The notes beneath the pieces are model-generated. The model did no database searches and was not told the DNA's origin. It worked only from the letters and a program-made list of their open reading frames with translations. The position numbers and the translations under genes are program-made. A stretch of 64,000 nucleotides of DNA from an uncultured Poribacteria bacterium (GTDB taxonomy: Bacteria; Poribacteria; WGA-4E; WGA-3G): the NCBI GenBank assembly GCA_951828385.1, contig OX639973.1:5137200-5201199 (forward strand), given 5' to 3'. This document shows, piece after piece, positions 15,029-27,752 of the stretch. The first letter of the stretch is position 1. The number at the start of each line of letters is the position of its first letter.

Positions 15029-16339
15029 TCAACTACCCAAGCCTAAAGACTTGGGCTTGTTAAGAGCGTCAAACAACGTTAACTGTGTTGCGTTCTGAAA
15101 GCCTTTGTCTCGTGCTTCGTTCTTGTTTCTCGTTTCTTCGAGGGTGGTAACCCACCGCTCTCCACGAAGGGCAGCAGCTGCCCTAAGAAGTATGTTTATC
15201 GCAGCGTTGTGGTCTCGGTCTAAAACCGTGCCACAAAACTGACAGTTAAAAGTGCGTATCGCCAGAGAGAGTTTCTTTGGCGACTTCTGACCACAACTTG
15301 AGCAGATTTGCGAGGTGTCTTTAGGGTCTACTTGATGGAAGTGCAAACCGTCTCTTTCGGAAACCATGTCCGCACACCATTTAAAGAAGGTTGCCCAAGA
15401 CGCGTCGCTGATACTCTTGCTGAGGTGCTGGTTCTTTACCATGTTAGAGACCCGTAAGTCCTCTGCCACTAATACATTGTTTTTCTGGTGGTGGTAGAGT
15501 TTATAGACGAGTTTGCCGATAAAATCTTTACGTCTGTTTGTTGTTCGCTCATGGTGTAAAGCGAGTTTGTGTTGTTGTTTCTTTCTACGGTGGCTACCTG
15601 TTTTCTTACGAGACAGGTCTCTCGCGTGTTTCCGGGTCCGACCTTCTGCTTGGCGATACCAGCGCGGGTTGTCCTCTTTTTCACCATCGGAAGTTGTGAG
15701 ATAGTGCGTTGTGCCGACATCAACAGCAATCGCATCAGTCGGTTCAACTTTCGGTGTATCGGGCAGTTCACAGGAGATATGAGCATACCAGCCACTCGCT
15801 TTTTTTACCAGCGACACTTCTTTCGGATCGCCTTCTAACGGGCGGTGCATGTATATCTTGACTTCACCTAACCCCGGCACTTTGAGTCGGTCGTGTTTCC
15901 ATGCTGTTTCACGGATAGGCGTCTGGCGAACTTTTACAACTTTTTTCTCTCTGTCTTTTGTCTTTCGCTGAACAACTTTCGGATATTTGCGAAGTTTCCA
16001 CGACATAGACCTAATCCGTTTATGGTGTCTTGGATAGCCTTTTTTCGCAGCACCGGCTTCGCACCGGCTATAGAAACCGTCGTAAGCTTTGTCCGTGCGT
16101 TCCAAAATACACACTTGCATATCTTGGGGCACTTCACGGAAGTCGGCATATTTTTTACGAGCCACTGTCAACTTCTGTTGCTGAGCGTAGCAAGACACCC
16201 GTTCACCTTCAGTCTCCCACGCAACCTTGCGATCATGGCGAGCAGAGTTCTGAAGTTCACAAAGGTGGTCTAACCACCTTAATAATGTTTGTTCCTGTGT
16301 TTGTGTCGGATACACAGGGCACCTAAAAGTTATATTCAT
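15029..16339 (-). CDS. tnpB: IS605-family TnpB (RNA-guided nuclease-type transposon protein)
   Basis: 436-aa TnpB/OrfB, the transposon-encoded ancestor of Cas12 that uses a right-end-derived RNA to cut DNA. The three RuvC-like acidic residues are all visible: D in AIAVDVGTTHYLTT (~residue 207), E in VLVAEDLRVSNM (~residue 296) and D in LDRDHNAAINI (~residue 385). The zinc ribbon CSSCG...CQFCG (~residues 348-374) is intact. The N-terminal OrfB_IS605 HTH region (QTQEQTLLRWLDHL) is complete. No tnpA (Y1 transposase) is nearby, so this is a tnpB-only element. The gene lies between ilvN and ilvC on the same strand. The last ten codons are encoded by the right-end palindrome (NKPKSLGLGS), as often seen in this group. 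Confidence 0.93.
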   Translation of the reverse strand: MNITFRCPVYPTQTQEQTLLRWLDHLCELQNSARHDRKVAWETEGERVSCYAQQQKLTVARKKYADFREVPQDMQVCILERTDKAYDGFYSRCEAGAAKKGYPRHHKRIRSMSWKLRKYPKVVQRKTKDREKKVVKVRQTPIRETAWKHDRLKVPGLGEVKIYMHRPLEGDPKEVSLVKKASGWYAHISCELPDTPKVEPTDAIAVDVGTTHYLTTSDGEKEDNPRWYRQAEGRTRKHARDLSRKKTGSHRRKKQQHKLALHHERTTNRRKDFIGKLVYKLYHHQKNNVLVAEDLRVSNMVKNQHLSKSISDASWATFFKWCADMVSERDGLHFHQVDPKDTSQICSSCGQKSPKKLSLAIRTFNCQFCGTVLDRDHNAAINILLRAAAALRGERWVTTLEETRNKNEARDKGFQNATQLTLFDALNKPKSLGLGS

Positions 16340-19080: not shown

Positions 19081-19380
19081 AAAAAAACCCTCTCGTTCCA
19101 ATTTTGGAGACGAGAAGGACATGGGCACTGACCTTACCGTGGTACCACTCCAATTCCCTTTCTCATTTTCAATTACAGGACCAGGCTTAGGAAGCCGCCC
19201 TATAAGGAGAAAGAGCACTCTTTGGGATGCGATAACGGGCATCGGACCGACTAATCCTACGCGTATATGTTCAGATTAGCAGCTTCAGGGCGACCTTCAG
19301 TCGTGGTAACTTGAGGAGACCTCTCAGCCGATGAGTCTCCATCTCTTGCAAGCCCGGGCGACTTACTCCTCCCCTTCAAC
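19081..19380 (-). ncRNA. T-box riboswitch leader of the ilv operon, probably tRNA-Val specific
   Basis: On the minus strand the antiterminator holds GGAGTGGTACCACGG (T-box, here pairing UGGU to an NCCA end with N=A). Just downstream a GC-rich stem with one bulged C is followed by seven Ts (near 19081-19115), the terminator. Stem I near 19340-19376 pairs AGGG/CCCU and AGUCG/CGACU around the S-turn pair AGUA/GAA. The bases after GAA are G-GUC-G, so the specifier is read as GUC (valine) by analogy with glyQS T-boxes, where GAA-A-GGC-A is the specifier loop. Stems II and III (TAATC/GATTA, GATGC/GCATC) are visible. The T-box identity is firm; the specifier call is an inference. Confidence 0.88.
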
Positions 19381-19469
19381 GCTTTTTTGGGTAACTATTT
19401 AGATGTTAATTACGCACACCGTTTGAGTAAGTTTCACGGTCATGCTGAAAGAATGATATTTACACTTTA

Positions 19470-19592: not shown

Positions 19593-19621
19593 TTGACATA
19601 ACTATCATAATATGGTAGTAT
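19593..19621 (+). promoter_or_regulatory. Promoter of the methyltransferase gene with an operator-like palindrome
   Basis: TTGACA (19593-19598), 17-bp spacer, TAGTAT (19616-19621). The imperfect palindrome CTATCATA-A-TATGGTAG (19602-19618, 7 of 8 arm bases complementary) fills the spacer and touches the -10. A repressor there would block polymerase. The coding region starts 58 bp after the -10. Confidence 0.65.
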
Positions 19622-19678
19622 ATACATGCGTTATGAAAAGATTAGGTTGATTGCTTTCAATATTAAAGGGTGAAATTG

Positions 19679-22372
19679 ATGAGTCAAAAATTGAGTCAAA
19701 AATACAAATCTGTTTATTTCCCGGAGTATCCAGCCGAAACTGCTAAGAAAAAATCGCTAACCTTAGCCTTCGGTAAGGAAACAGGCGAAATTTATGAGCG
19801 CGTTAAAGGGCTGTCCAGTGCCGAATTGCGCCAACTACTCGGAAATGACTATCCAACTCTTGTGGCCAATGCGAAAGCCGACAATTTACCCTTAAATACC
19901 TATTGCCTTCGCCAATTAGAGAATTCCATAAATCTCATTCAGGAATCCGCTGTCCAATTGTATCTGCCAGGTTTGAATATAAAAACGGAATTATTTGATC
20001 CGGTGTCTGTAACTTTCAAGGGGGGGCGAAAAGAGCCGTTCGCTCGATGGTATCCGTACTTAGAGGGGTATTCAACGCAATTTGTAGAATCTATTTTGGA
20101 AAGGTATGCTCCGAATGCCCAAACAATCCTTGATCCGTTTGGTGGAACAGGAACAACTGCTTTCACTGCATCACAACTTAACAAAACCGCTTACTTCTGT
20201 GAAATAAACCCAGTTTTGCAGTATGTAAGTTTAACAAAAATAAAAGTCAGGCGATTAAAAGCGTCTCACCGGTCCTTATTAGCTCAAGAACTAGCTCAAA
20301 CTAAAATATCGCTAAAAGCACTTGAAAAATATTCGCGAAATTGTACTTTAGACCAAACCTATGTTAATACCTTTGGTAATAGTTCATTTTTTGATGCCCA
20401 CGTTTATGACCAAGTTTTACGGATTCGCTCATGGATTAATAAAGTTGCGCTTGAGAATCCGGTTTTAGCTGATCTGATCACGATCGCAGCATTATCAGCA
20501 CTTGTTCCTGCCTCGCTAATGAAACGATCTGGCGATTTGAGGTATAAAACAACGAACGAACTTAAGCGTCAAGTTGTACCCCTTATTGAAGGAATTTGCG
20601 AAAACATAGATCAAATGGTTCATGATATACAGAATGATATTGACGGACTGAAAACTGAGCCGTTACTAATATGTGAAAACGCTCGATCGTTAGATTGCAT
20701 TCCACCTCTCACTATTGATGCCGTAATAACAAGTCCTCCCTACGTCAACGGAACAAATTATTTTCGGAACACAAAAATAGAATTGTGGTTCTTAGGGTGT
20801 TTAAAAGAAAAAAAAGATTTGGCGAAATTCCGAGAGGTTTCTTTAACGGCTGGTATCAACGACGTAACTGTCTCCAAAACACCCGTTCTATCCCACCCAG
20901 ATGTTCAAAAGATTGTCTCTAAACTGGAAAAAGACGCTTATGATTCGCGCATCCCGCGTATGATTGCCAGCTACTTTAGCGAGATATCAGAGGTATTTCG
21001 ATCGATTCGTCAACACTTGGTGTCTGAGGCGACAATTGCAATTGACATTGGTGATTCTTGTTACGCTGGTATTCATGTACCAGTCGATAGATTATTGTCA
21101 GTATGCTTGCAAGCGTACGGTTTCGTTGAAGAAGATTCCGTCACACTACGACAACGCAAATCCAGAGGTGGAATGTTGCTCAAGCAATCGTTACTCGTTT
21201 TTAGATACGCCACTCATAAGAGCAGAGGAACCGCCAAAAAACCAACCGCCAACTGGCGTGTTGAATGGGACTCCTTCAAACAAAATCTACCGCATCAGAA
21301 AATGCCATTTATAAAGAGGAACTGGGGGCATGTTCGGCACTCATTATGCTCTTATCCGGGTAAACTAAAACCTGCTATTGCACATCACTTGGTACAAACA
21401 TTTGTTCCAGAAGATGGAAGAGTTTTAGATCCGTTTGCCGGTGTTGGCACTATACCATTTGAGGCAGCATTGGCTGGTAAACATGCCTACGGTTTTGAGA
21501 TAAGTCCCGCTGCTTTTGCTATCGCCAGTGCTAAGGTTCAAGAACCTACGGAACTCGGGTGCATAACAGTTATTGAAACAGTAGAAAATTTTATTAACTG
21601 TCACTCGGTTACAGATAAAGAGCGCACTGAAGCAAACCAATTGGGATTTAATGGCAAAATAGCCGAATATTATGAACCGCAAACTTTAAAAGAAATTCTC
21701 TTAGCGCGACGTTATTTTCAAATGTACCCGCCAGAAACAGCTGAAGAGCAGTTTGTATTTGCTGCGTTGCTTCATATTTTACACGGGAACCGTCCGTATG
21801 CGCTCAGCCGTCGATCACACCCTCTTACACCTTACAAACCGACTGGACCTTATGAGTATCGCTCATTGATTGGTCAACTACGAGCGAAAGTTCAGCGGGG
21901 GTTAAATGAAGATTTACCTACCAATTTCCTACCGGGGAAAATATTTTTCCAAGATGCAACAAGTTGGTGGCCGAGGGAGATTGATCAACTGGATAGTATT
22001 ATTACATCCCCACCGTTCTTTGATAGTACCCGATTTTACGCTGCAAACTGGTTAAGGCTATGGTTTTCGGGCTGGTCTGCCCACGATTTTAAAAAACGCC
22101 CATCGGCTTTCGTTGATGAAAAGCAGAAAAGCAGTTTTGATGTATATATCCCCATTCTGCGTCAAGCGAAAGAACGGCTTAAATCTAATGGTGTCGTTGT
22201 TCTGCATCTGGGGAAAAGTGTTAAGTGTGACATGGCGGATCATTTACAGAAACTTGGTAAGCGGTGGTTTCGGTCAGTGGATGTTTTCGATGAAAGCGTT
22301 GCTCACTGTGAATCCCATGGTATCCGTGATAAAGGAACGGTTACGTCTCATCAGTATCTTGTGCTGTATTAG
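19679..22372 (+). CDS. Tandem two-domain DNA methyltransferase (probable restriction-modification methylase)
   Basis: 897-aa protein with two complete methyltransferase cores. Half 1 has the AdoMet motif ILDPFGGTGTTAFTA (~residue 151) and catalytic motif VITSPPYVNGTNYF (~residue 350). Half 2 has VLDPFAGVGTIPFEAALAGK (~residue 582) and ITSPPFFDSTRFYAANWLR (~residue 776). TSPP(Y/F) points to amino-methylation (N4-cytosine or N6-adenine). Two cores in one chain resemble enzymes that methylate both strands of an asymmetric site, as in M.FokI. The frame is open from GTG at 19670, but AAAGGG precedes the ATG at 19679. Codons are AT-rich compared with the neighbours, suggesting transfer. It overlaps the convergent HNH gene by 32 bp. 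Specificity cannot be read. Confidence 0.88.
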   Translation: MSQKLSQKYKSVYFPEYPAETAKKKSLTLAFGKETGEIYERVKGLSSAELRQLLGNDYPTLVANAKADNLPLNTYCLRQLENSINLIQESAVQLYLPGLNIKTELFDPVSVTFKGGRKEPFARWYPYLEGYSTQFVESILERYAPNAQTILDPFGGTGTTAFTASQLNKTAYFCEINPVLQYVSLTKIKVRRLKASHRSLLAQELAQTKISLKALEKYSRNCTLDQTYVNTFGNSSFFDAHVYDQVLRIRSWINKVALENPVLADLITIAALSALVPASLMKRSGDLRYKTTNELKRQVVPLIEGICENIDQMVHDIQNDIDGLKTEPLLICENARSLDCIPPLTIDAVITSPPYVNGTNYFRNTKIELWFLGCLKEKKDLAKFREVSLTAGINDVTVSKTPVLSHPDVQKIVSKLEKDAYDSRIPRMIASYFSEISEVFRSIRQHLVSEATIAIDIGDSCYAGIHVPVDRLLSVCLQAYGFVEEDSVTLRQRKSRGGMLLKQSLLVFRYATHKSRGTAKKPTANWRVEWDSFKQNLPHQKMPFIKRNWGHVRHSLCSYPGKLKPAIAHHLVQTFVPEDGRVLDPFAGVGTIPFEAALAGKHAYGFEISPAAFAIASAKVQEPTELGCITVIETVENFINCHSVTDKERTEANQLGFNGKIAEYYEPQTLKEILLARRYFQMYPPETAEEQFVFAALLHILHGNRPYALSRRSHPLTPYKPTGPYEYRSLIGQLRAKVQRGLNEDLPTNFLPGKIFFQDATSWWPREIDQLDSIITSPPFFDSTRFYAANWLRLWFSGWSAHDFKKRPSAFVDEKQKSSFDVYIPILRQAKERLKSNGVVVLHLGKSVKCDMADHLQKLGKRWFRSVDVFDESVAHCESHGIRDKGTVTSHQYLVLY

Positions 22373-23381
22373 GGGCGTTTTCCTGATGAATGACGCGTTG
22401 GTACGCCTGATCAGCTTGTCGAATCCAAGCGGATGAAATGGTTGCTGAATGCTCAAAAAAATCAAAATCCTCATATTCCAGGATCCGGTTGCGTAGTTTG
22501 ATAATTTCTGACATATAGGCTGCATATTTTGTCAGAAGTTGGTCGACCTGTTCAGATATCTTAAGGCGTTCAATTGCTACCGGATTATAGCGTGGCTGTC
22601 CAGCGAGTATTTCATACTGAACACCTGTCAGAACAGCAAGATTCTTCAACTCGTTGTCTGAATAATATGCTGAAGGCCACTTATCTGATTTCTCACTGTT
22701 ATGCTCTCTGCATAACAATGTTGCATTTTCAGTTGTCAGGGGCCACAAAAAAACAGCAGGCAGTGTATGATCAAGCGGTCGTTCTTTAGCACCAACTCCT
22801 CGTAGGTCTTTCCCACACTTAAAACAGCGATAGCCAAAACGTTTGTAGATATCTTCGCTTTTAATTTTCTGACTTCCAGAGAGATTCAAATACATTCGTC
22901 GTTTTTGGGCAGCTTCACGGTGCTGGTCTGTCAACCGAGTTTTGTTTTTAATGGCGTTGTAAACGGCTTTACATAATCTGCACTCGCCCTGACGACCAGA
23001 TTTTCGAGCACTATGGCGGTCGAATAAATCAAGTGGTTTAATCGTATTACAAATGATGCAATACTTATATTCTTGTGCTTCTTCAATATAGTCATCGTGC
23101 AGAATTGTAAACGTGCCTTCCTCAATAATAGAATTGTCTCTCCGATCTTTCAGTTCATACTCATAGAATTGCGTTTCATCTCCAGATAGCATAACTATCT
23201 CACAACTCGGGCAAACAATCTCAAAATCACTACCAATCTCACTTTTGCGAATGAAGATAAATTCCTTGCACTCACTGTTCAAACACTGGAAACCTTTAAA
23301 AACCACATCCCCCATTCCACGAACATGCTCTGCACGTATTTGATTGGTTTTATCCACTTTTGTATATGGTTTACGTCTCAT
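22341..23381 (-). CDS. HNH endonuclease, probable restriction enzyme partner
   Basis: 346-aa protein with a ββα-metal HNH core near residues 183-235: CFKCGKD zinc knuckle, RPLDHTLP with the catalytic His 205, then ENATLLCREHNSEKSDKWP with Asn 219 and His 227. Upstream are further Cys pairs (C33/C38 with CPSC at 57-60; CIIC at 108-111 with CRLC at 134-137), so it probably binds two or three structural zincs. This Cys-rich array plus HNH is unlike simple group I intron nucleases and resembles HNH restriction enzymes. A convergent methyltransferase overlaps its end by 32 bp, which is the main reason to call it restrictive. It also shares the AT-rich codon bias. Promoter at 23448-23476. Inference, not proof. 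Confidence 0.8.
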   Translation of the reverse strand: MRRKPYTKVDKTNQIRAEHVRGMGDVVFKGFQCLNSECKEFIFIRKSEIGSDFEIVCPSCEIVMLSGDETQFYEYELKDRRDNSIIEEGTFTILHDDYIEEAQEYKYCIICNTIKPLDLFDRHSARKSGRQGECRLCKAVYNAIKNKTRLTDQHREAAQKRRMYLNLSGSQKIKSEDIYKRFGYRCFKCGKDLRGVGAKERPLDHTLPAVFLWPLTTENATLLCREHNSEKSDKWPSAYYSDNELKNLAVLTGVQYEILAGQPRYNPVAIERLKISEQVDQLLTKYAAYMSEIIKLRNRILEYEDFDFFEHSATISSAWIRQADQAYQRVIHQENAPNTAQDTDET

Positions 23382-24629: not shown

Positions 24630-27600
24630 TTAGTCGTCCGATTGGCTTACTTCAGCGATTGCACCGACACGGCAGACACGTTTATAGGCACAATAGTTGC
24701 ACGGTTCTGTCTTATTGCCCGGGGTAACAGGTTTATCACCATCAATTTCATTCTCTACAAAACCGTATTCTTTGGTGTCTATAAGGTGCCCTTCCTCAAC
24801 TTCTTCTTCACTTCTTACAAATGTTTTGATACGCGTGATCAAAGGAAAGTTGCCTTTAGATATGCTGTCAACGTACTGTTGTACGTAGCCACTGACACGA
24901 GCAAGTCGGTCCTCGAAAATTTCATCGTCTAATAACTGACCACTTTGTGAACTAACTGACTTCCAGTCTGTACCGTTGTAGTTTTTGAATACCTCACCGT
25001 TTAAGAATTCCGTTCCGATACCGAGTTCAACTGTGCATTGGTCCAGCCTGATTTTATGATAGAGACCTGACGCTGATTCTAAACCGGTTATTCCATTATT
25101 ATCCAGCAATTTCTTTGCGATTTGTAGGTAGATCGGAAGTTGGAGGCTACGTCCACTAAGAATTTCGGGCATTCTAACCGTAGAACTACCAGTCTTGTAG
25201 TCGATAACATTAAAGGCACTGTTGCCAATATCAATGCGATCTATTTTGCCGGTCATGCGTACGTTGCCGATACGGATAGGCGTAGTACAACTGAGTTTGG
25301 AATCCCTTGGCTCACGTTCTTGCCCAAAACTAACTTCAAAATAACTTGGCGTAACAGACAGATCGCAGGTACCTTCTGCTTCGAGCCATTTGTGTAGCGC
25401 AACGCGGAGTTTCTCTATGTCAGTTTCCCAAAAGAGATTGTCATCACCGATAAGGTTTTCAGCCCGCTGATTGCGGCGTTCTTCAGATTTGGTATCCAAG
25501 ATACCATCTAACTGCCGTTTTGCCGCTTCAAAACATTGTTCGATGGGCGGGTCTTCGCGACGATTATTGTAGAATTCAAAGAGCACCTCATGGAGAAGTG
25601 ATCCTTTTTCGCGGTTAGATAACTCATCTTCTGCATCGTCTGCCTCAGCACGGAACTTTAAAACTTCACTAACAAAGTACTGAAATGGACACTTGGCGTA
25701 GGTTTCTAACGCTGTGACAGAATAGGGTTTGTTGTGAAACCTTTGCAACCGATTTTGACTGCCATCAGAAAAGTTTGCTGCCCTTAACACCCCCTCATAA
25801 GCCAAGCATTCGTGTGTTTCCTCTCGGCTCTTTTCAACTGCAATTACATGGTCAATTAAAGGACGCATATCCGCCAAGTTATCGGGGAATTCTCGGTCGG
25901 ATGGAGTGGATGTTGTCCATGCATGGTTGCCGTATGTACTGAGAAAACCTGGGACGCTGCCTTGTTCAGGATTCGCGACTTCAATCGTCTCAACGTCGGC
26001 GATTGCCTTTAATTGTCCGAGAAAAGGAGAAGGGATCAGTTCCGCTTCACGCTCACGTTGTGGTACAAGCAGGTAAAGCCGTTCACGAAAAGATTTGAGT
26101 AATCGATAGAATATGAATCGGTTATCGTATAGTTGTTCTTCTTCATTGCGATAAGGGTTTTCTGGTAATAACGGATCTGGACGATAATTTTCTGGAAACC
26201 TACCCTCTACAAAATCGCCCAAAAAGACGGTGTCAAACTCCAAACTTCTGAGTTCATTACTATATGTCAAACTTCTGAGTTCGCTCAGTGAGAAAATCTT
26301 AACGGTTTCCTCATTCACCGATGCTCTATTTTGATAGTGGGTATGCTTGGCAATATACCTGAGTTTATTAATGTAATCTTCGGATTTATATAACCTATCT
26401 TCTTCAGATTTTAACATGTCACAAAGTCCATTAACTATTTTTTGGAACTGCTGGAATGCGTTTACCTCACCTTCAACAATGCTTCTATTTTTCAGGAGCA
26501 TTGGGTTTAAAATAGTAGAAATGACTTTCTCAGATTCAAGAAAGTTGTCAATGCGATGCCTAAATTCATCGGGACGACATTCTCCTATATTTGGTTTAGA
26601 CCTAACGTCAGCGAAATAGGTGTTGCCGAGAGGAGTTTGCCGCGGTGAAAGGCGAGAGAAAATTTCTTTGACAACTTCTGACTGTGTTAATGGCACATTT
26701 TCAACAAGTGAATATGGAATGCCATAAGTCGGAAAAACTTCTGCAATTCGCTGTTGGTAATTACCTATGTTGTAAAATACAACGCAAATTTCACTCAGTT
26801 TACAGTCACTACTTAAGACCCTCTTCTGAATTAGATGAGCAATCTGTTCTATTTCTTCGGATCGATCGGCTGGTTCTAAAACCTTAACTTTATCTCTTAG
26901 ATCAGTTTTATGCGCCAAGGTGGCATTCGTTCTGAACAAATTCTCAGCAAAATGTTGATGTCGATTAAGATCCCGTTCATAGTTGGTATCAACGCAAGCA
27001 TCTGTGTCTTTAAATTGTGAAACGAGGTCAATAATATTTTTATAAAGGGCTTTATTGTCTTCAAGGCAATCGGTGCGAAACCACATCTCTATCTCAGGTA
27101 TTTCCGCAATGTGCTTCAAGAGTTTAATATCGGCTCTTGAAATCAAAGTAAAACCTTCAACAACAACAAGGTTAACACCAGGAAACGCGCCTTTGATGAA
27201 CGCCTCTTTGAAATTGTTTGCAAGGTAATGGTGTCTGCCTTTTTCATCTATCCACCGGTTTCCAAGTTTCGCCTCATACTCGCTATAAATGTGAGCGAGG
27301 TTTGCCTTCATTGGATCATCCTCTGTAAAGTTCGGATCAGTATTTCCTTGATCCCTAAGATGATTTATCGTGTCCAAGATAAGGGAGAGTGTACTATCGG
27401 GGATAGCAGTATTTTGGATTGGGCGAAATGTGTTATATAGGCGGGTATTGGTATTATCAGCCTCAGGATCCACTATTTCGTGAAGCCACAGGCGTTGGAT
27501 CCCTGATAAGATATGTTGCTTTGACGACTGCGCTTGTCTGTATAACCTTTGAATGAACTCCATACTGGTATAGACGCGCAAATTGGCAACTGCGCCGTTT

Positions 27601-27725
27601 GGATGATAGCCTACCAATTCGCGCTGGCGCTTTACACGTGCGGCATCGGTCGGCACAATGACGACAAAGGTATGCGCCTTATTGTTTTGGATAAGGGTTT
27701 TAAGGGTGTTTTCTATAGCTTGCAT
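24630..27725 (-). CDS. AddB-like PD-(D/E)XK exonuclease subunit
   Basis: 1031-aa protein resembling the AddB/RexB partner of AddAB double-strand-break resection complexes. The N-terminus (VVIVPTDAARVKRQREL) is the helicase-like domain without a good Walker A, as in inactive AddB helicase halves. The middle has the recognisable FDTVFLGDFVEGRFPENYR. The C-terminal RecB-type nuclease is complete: KIDRIDIGNSAFNVIDYKTG (~residues 846-870) with the DYK of PD-(D/E)XK, then LQLPIYLQIAKKL. Four Cys that would hold an Fe-S cluster are seen, one in YAKCPFQYF and three in CNYCAYKRVC near the end. A GTG at 27740 is possible; the ATG at 27725 is preferred. It follows metG by ~27 bp, probably cotranscribed. 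No AddA is in the window. Confidence 0.85.
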   Translation of the reverse strand: MQAIENTLKTLIQNNKAHTFVVIVPTDAARVKRQRELVGYHPNGAVANLRVYTSMEFIQRLYRQAQSSKQHILSGIQRLWLHEIVDPEADNTNTRLYNTFRPIQNTAIPDSTLSLILDTINHLRDQGNTDPNFTEDDPMKANLAHIYSEYEAKLGNRWIDEKGRHHYLANNFKEAFIKGAFPGVNLVVVEGFTLISRADIKLLKHIAEIPEIEMWFRTDCLEDNKALYKNIIDLVSQFKDTDACVDTNYERDLNRHQHFAENLFRTNATLAHKTDLRDKVKVLEPADRSEEIEQIAHLIQKRVLSSDCKLSEICVVFYNIGNYQQRIAEVFPTYGIPYSLVENVPLTQSEVVKEIFSRLSPRQTPLGNTYFADVRSKPNIGECRPDEFRHRIDNFLESEKVISTILNPMLLKNRSIVEGEVNAFQQFQKIVNGLCDMLKSEEDRLYKSEDYINKLRYIAKHTHYQNRASVNEETVKIFSLSELRSLTYSNELRSLEFDTVFLGDFVEGRFPENYRPDPLLPENPYRNEEEQLYDNRFIFYRLLKSFRERLYLLVPQREREAELIPSPFLGQLKAIADVETIEVANPEQGSVPGFLSTYGNHAWTTSTPSDREFPDNLADMRPLIDHVIAVEKSREETHECLAYEGVLRAANFSDGSQNRLQRFHNKPYSVTALETYAKCPFQYFVSEVLKFRAEADDAEDELSNREKGSLLHEVLFEFYNNRREDPPIEQCFEAAKRQLDGILDTKSEERRNQRAENLIGDDNLFWETDIEKLRVALHKWLEAEGTCDLSVTPSYFEVSFGQEREPRDSKLSCTTPIRIGNVRMTGKIDRIDIGNSAFNVIDYKTGSSTVRMPEILSGRSLQLPIYLQIAKKLLDNNGITGLESASGLYHKIRLDQCTVELGIGTEFLNGEVFKNYNGTDWKSVSSQSGQLLDDEIFEDRLARVSGYVQQYVDSISKGNFPLITRIKTFVRSEEEVEEGHLIDTKEYGFVENEIDGDKPVTPGNKTEPCNYCAYKRVCRVGAIAEVSQSDD

Positions 27726-27752
27726 TTTCTCACGGCACACGGAGCGTGCCTA

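Follow-up and report, generated by a model that had tools for sequence, protein, structure and literature searches.

A fused two-core methyltransferase and a zinc-rich HNH nuclease as a very probable type II restriction-modification system in Poribacteria, with a conserved palindrome at the methyltransferase promoter

In restriction-modification (R-M) systems of the FokI kind, two methyltransferase activities are fused in one protein. Type IIA/IIS systems combine one nuclease with two methyltransferase activities and, optionally, a C protein, and in type IIA systems each methyltransferase modifies one strand (PMC4081073). EcoRII, SsoII, ScrFI, and MspI are C5-cytosine methyltransferases carrying a helix-turn-helix, and enzymes of these types repress themselves at an operator over their own promoter through this N-terminal element (PMC3874152). 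Here, we compare with these systems a gene pair, methyltransferase M and nuclease R (Table 1), from an uncultured Poribacteria bacterium, with positions given in the window, i.e., the whole 64,000-nucleotide stretch of DNA that was analysed. Like the FokI and SapI kind (type IIA/IIS), the pair would have one nuclease and two methyltransferase activities, but its R has no Pfam or NCBIfam match above cut-off and only marginal PADLOC matches, and its M is a TSPP/TSPP fusion with an extra N-terminal domain. R appears to have a zinc-stabilised beta-beta-alpha-metal nuclease in common with Hpy99I, PacI, and KpnI (PMC4081073), though it differs from them in its three zinc sites and endonuclease-VII-like core (phrog_1035), and a PDB search returned no sequence match to any of the three. 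As in EcoRII, SsoII, ScrFI, and MspI, we infer that M would bind an operator overlapping its own promoter via its N-terminal domain, though unlike these enzymes it is an amino-methyltransferase fusion, and its N-terminal domain matches no family.

Table 1. Features of the gene pair and its upstream region (window positions)
Feature	Position	Strand	Description	Basis
Promoter-like site of M	19593..19621	+	TTGACA, 17 bp, TAGTAT	palindrome inside spacer, over second hexamer
Operator-like palindrome	19601..19619	.	ACTATCATAATATGGTAGT	upstream alignment and genome scans
M	19679..22372	+	fused two-core DNA methyltransferase, 897 aa	PF01555 6e-24; PADLOC MTase_II PDLC03389 1.7e-69 over residues 109-511; model
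Extra N-terminal domain of M	19700..19942	+	residues 8-88, predicted b-b-a-a-a-a	model and homologue comparison
M core 1	20132..20743	+	motif I DPFGGTGT (20132-20155) to motif IV TSPPY (20729-20743)	sequence motifs
M core 2	21428..22018	+	motif I DPFAGVGT (21428-21451) to motif IV TSPPF (22004-22018)	sequence motifs
M/R tail-to-tail overlap	22341..22372	.	32 bp	ORF coordinates; comparison with relatives
R	22341..23381	-	HNH/endonuclease-VII-like nuclease, 346 aa	phrog_1035 endonuclease VII 4.2e-16
R HNH core	22689..22826	-	residues 186-231, CFKC...LDH...C..HN..K	sequence motif and homologue alignment
R second zinc site	22971..23060	-	C108/C111/C134/C137	sequence motif and homologue alignment
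R N-terminal zinc site	23202..23285	-	C33/C38/C57/C60	homologue alignment

The preliminary description of this DNA held that M carries two full AdoMet/TSPP cores in one chain, and three lines of evidence bear this out. Each core has a DPF.G.GT motif I followed ~190-200 residues on by TSPPY/F (residues 152-159 and 351-355 in core 1; 584-591 and 776-780 in core 2), in homologues the first half can be aligned to the second (24-27% identity, E-values down to ~1e-12), and the AlphaFold model contains two methyltransferase folds (pLDDT 79). The motif order I-IV is that of the alpha class. Profile matches (PF01555 and PADLOC MTase_II) assign M to the DNA amino-methyltransferases, and the TSPP motifs suggest N4-methylcytosine as its product. 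Because the two cores are separate genes, M1 and M2, in Ureibacillus and Psychrobacter, the window M is most simply a fusion. Each core probably protects one strand of the same site, and from two methyltransferase domains on the type IIA model one might guess at an asymmetric site and type IIS cleavage. Two cores alone do not prove two methylations, and in a symmetric-site system one core could methylate and its partner serve for DNA recognition or be inactive; we consider this improbable, as alignment of the copies shows motifs I and IV preserved in each of the two cores, and the split systems likewise keep them in their two genes. M starts at an ATG behind the sequence AAAGG, and a GTG in the same frame lies at 19670. 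At the start of M (19679-19705), the window carries a short in-frame duplication (ATGAGTCAAAAA TTGAGTCAAAAA) that relatives lack; they start at the second copy.

R had been described as an HNH core with two or three extra zinc sites, and we find one zinc knuckle within the core plus two extra Cys4 sites. The possibility that its catalytic residues had been lost was checked by alignment, and D204, H205, and N228 (LDH at 203-205) are conserved in all homologues aligned, leaving a nuclease with an intact catalytic site. The knuckle ligands, CxxC (186/189), C224, and H227, are kept in the aligned copies of the fused family (Cys or His at 227), and the distant Psychrobacter R keeps the three catalytic residues and the knuckle ligands, with Cys for H227. 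Both extra Cys4 sets are invariant in 14 homologues. Residues 97-242 match phrog_1035, a phage endonuclease VII family, and there is a weak match to the HNH domain of Cas9, which makes R a Zn-HNH nuclease that carries one more zinc module at its N-terminus and ends in a helical part. The structural model is weak (pLDDT 62), and Foldseek against the PDB found nothing under E 0.36. As judged by sequence, R is a divergent HNH enzyme of the endonuclease-VII-like type, one that the Pfam, NCBIfam, and PADLOC models lack.

The convergent arrangement reported earlier, in which M and R end inside each other by 32 bp, was recovered from the open reading frames, and most intact Poribacteria copies show the same overlap, as do two of the three copies from Latescibacterota. 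Purifying selection acts on M and R alike (dN/dS 0.05-0.11), which, together with the recurrence of the overlap, argues that the pair is more than a chance juxtaposition. The overlap is not essential, since it is shortened or the gene order is reversed in some relatives (L042, L043, L044), with a divergent order seen once, in a Desulfobacterales locus (L042), though where present it may add mutual antisense effects on M and R.

Across the 98 genomes searched, R is present in 12, and in each of these M or a piece of M adjoins it; the genes are likewise linked in other phyla. Separate occurrence, which would have counted against the R-M reading, was looked for, and in these 98 genomes R was never away from M or its remnant. 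M without R in G054 and an M fragment in G037 are contig edges. Full-length M copies in this genome set are 75-90% identical to the window M, and a scan of genome collections recovered the pair in Latescibacterota, Desulfobacterales, Chloroflexota (Anaerolineae), Acidobacteriota (Pyrinomonadaceae), and Ureibacillus manganicus, the last being a split version (M1, M2, R) in the cultured type strain DSM 26584 (L047 5977-9498). A plasmid search added a distant version on pA39BP3 of Psychrobacter sp. ANT_P39B (L033), which resembles the window in that its M1, M2, and R are homologous and likewise arranged convergently, but differs in that M is split in two genes, the N-terminal domain is missing, and a separate XRE-type C protein is encoded, by a small helix-turn-helix gene before R with a PADLOC Control_protein match of 4e-23. 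The plasmid R (471 aa) also has an N-terminus unlike that of the window R.

Together, the constant adjacency of M and R, the conserved catalytic residues, the low dN/dS of both genes, and a split homologue beside an R-M controller gene strongly support the restriction-modification reading, and we regard the pair as very probably a type II R-M system. Patterns of decay fit this reading: only about the first 36 residues of R survive beside a whole M in a further Chloroflexi metagenome-assembled genome (L050), both genes are frameshifted in G050, and in G029 (L060 14987-15319) M has an in-frame internal deletion at a 5-bp TTTAC repeat that leaves its N-terminal region. The G029 locus also speaks against restriction-modification in that a full-length R stands with this deleted M, though that R differs at four otherwise invariant alignment columns, with D152G and P236S among these private changes. 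If M were instead an epigenetic methyltransferase and R a mobile HNH nuclease of the homing type, this would accommodate the resemblance of R to phage HNH/endonuclease VII proteins and the TnpB element that the ilvB-SOD gap, where the pair lies, takes in G009; this reading is nonetheless highly improbable, as R is always accompanied by M or its remnant, the two genes stay together whether convergent or divergent, a C protein is encoded in the Psychrobacter copy, and a scan of viral contigs found no relative of R.

Within the genus, the locus reads ilvN-ilvB-[M><R]-SOD-addB-metG, and the pair has the same place in a sister genus, the addB and metG part being seen in the genus only; in genomes without the pair, ilvB adjoins SOD. 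The divergence of M and R roughly parallels that of SOD, and in the tree the Poribacteria M group in a single clade, adjacent to one formed by the Latescibacterota M, although M of G054, from another genus, groups with G030, possibly through transfer or a binning error. This constant place, roughly parallel divergence, and clade structure mark the pair as an old resident of the ilvB-SOD gap in Poribacteria, with either many losses or repeated insertion at a single spot, and with an earlier history of transfer between phyla. The preliminary description had called both genes more AT-rich than their neighbours, which hinted at recent acquisition. The difference is real against the window (GC 42.0% for M and 40.8% for R vs 48.3%), but it is not specific to the pair, because the addB-like neighbour is as AT-rich (42.5%), and AT-richness alone is therefore no evidence of recent import. 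Inside Poribacteria, recent horizontal import is not supported, given the shared ilvB-SOD place in two genera and the single M clade.

Several neighbouring elements were observed at this locus. The ilvB/ilvN genes are preceded by a T-box leader (19103-19388, minus strand; Rfam RF00230, 100 bits) that directly borders the R-M insertion, and a TnpB-type gene (15029-16339, minus strand) lies near ilvN. The G009 TnpB (L066 238-1226) is related to the latter and adjoins SOD on the side that holds the R-M pair in other genomes, and the ilvB-SOD gap may thus be an insertion hot spot. Beside SOD, an AddB/RecB-nuclease-like gene (24630-27740, minus strand) shows 50-84% identity among genus members, far below SOD and metG.

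What is new here is a conserved palindrome at the M promoter, found only at M among the 98 genomes. In the upstream alignment, TTGACA-n2-ACTAYCATAATATGRTAGT-ATATAC, with small variations, precedes every fused M with a readable 5' flank, and across four phyla the palindrome hardly varies amid unalignable flanks, being kept in Latescibacterota, Desulfobacterales, and Chloroflexota. It is unique in its own 6.66-Mb genome at up to 3 mismatches, and promoter plus palindrome (≤2 mismatches) occur in 11 of the 98 genomes, exactly those in which the 5' flank of M is retained, and in each case immediately ahead of M; G029 and G037 drop out of this count because their contigs end before that flank. Lying over the spacer and second hexamer, the palindrome occupies what would be a repressor position. 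Another 28 matches in viral contigs are probably fortuitous, with neither M nor R adjacent. The palindrome is missing from both split systems, Psychrobacter having a C protein gene instead.

The N-terminal domain of M follows the same division, an extra stretch of about 90 residues being present in all fused M and missing from the split M1 of Psychrobacter and Ureibacillus, and its profile, at strong E-values, matches only M in the same genomes. The domain has no Pfam match, and its best PDB sequence hit is at E 1.8; these family and PDB sequence searches recognised no DNA-binding fold in it, the PDB structure comparison having covered the whole M model. Ribbon-helix-helix and helix-turn-helix folds were considered from secondary structure, and neither has sequence support. 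In ORF listings, no separate small helix-turn-helix controller was recognised beside the window pair or its fused relatives, and no controller gene in Ureibacillus.

Given the palindrome at the promoter, an N-terminal domain only in fused M, a C protein in Psychrobacter, where both are missing, and the known precedents, autorepression by M is the simplest reading, and we put at about even chances that fused M represses its own promoter via this domain in place of a C protein. With the same balance of confidence, the domain would be a new kind of built-in repressor reading ACTAYCAT-AAT-ATGRTAGT, by which a two-headed amino-methyltransferase sets its own level without a C protein. On entry into a host, the promoter would be unrepressed and M made freely, so that both strands of each site become methylated; once M is plentiful, its N-terminal domain would bind the palindrome, which sits between the promoter's -35 and -10 boxes, and so shut off further expression of M, and R, held together by zinc, would cut unmethylated copies of the site in incoming DNA. 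Self-control by M would thereby do the job of the separate C protein in the Psychrobacter relative.

Two other R-M readings of the palindrome were weighed. Control could lie, in CfrBI style, with methylation of a recognition site inside the palindrome and involve no DNA-binding domain of M, as a methylated promoter site controls some R-M systems (PMC3874152) and the half-sites contain cytosines. However, half-site variation among loci (ACTATCAT, ACTACCAT, GCTACCAT, GCTTCTAT) hits these cytosines, which is hard to fit with one fixed recognition site, and the N-terminal domain that accompanies the operator is left unexplained, such that we hold this version unlikely. The palindrome could instead be bound by R, with the zinc ribbon at its N-terminus as the contact, or by some regulator of the host. 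R does have two spare zinc modules, but the Ureibacillus R keeps the same N-terminal region where the palindrome is absent, and a host regulator would have to be common to several phyla with no other site in the genome, so to this binding, too, we give little credence.

If M does govern itself, fused and split M form a natural experiment in the replacement of a separate R-M controller by methyltransferase self-control. The restriction toolbox gains a nuclease family missing from profile libraries together with a methyltransferase fusion that spans phyla, and as cultured relatives carry the system (Ureibacillus manganicus DSM 26584 and Psychrobacter sp. ANT_P39B), its site and cut are measurable there.
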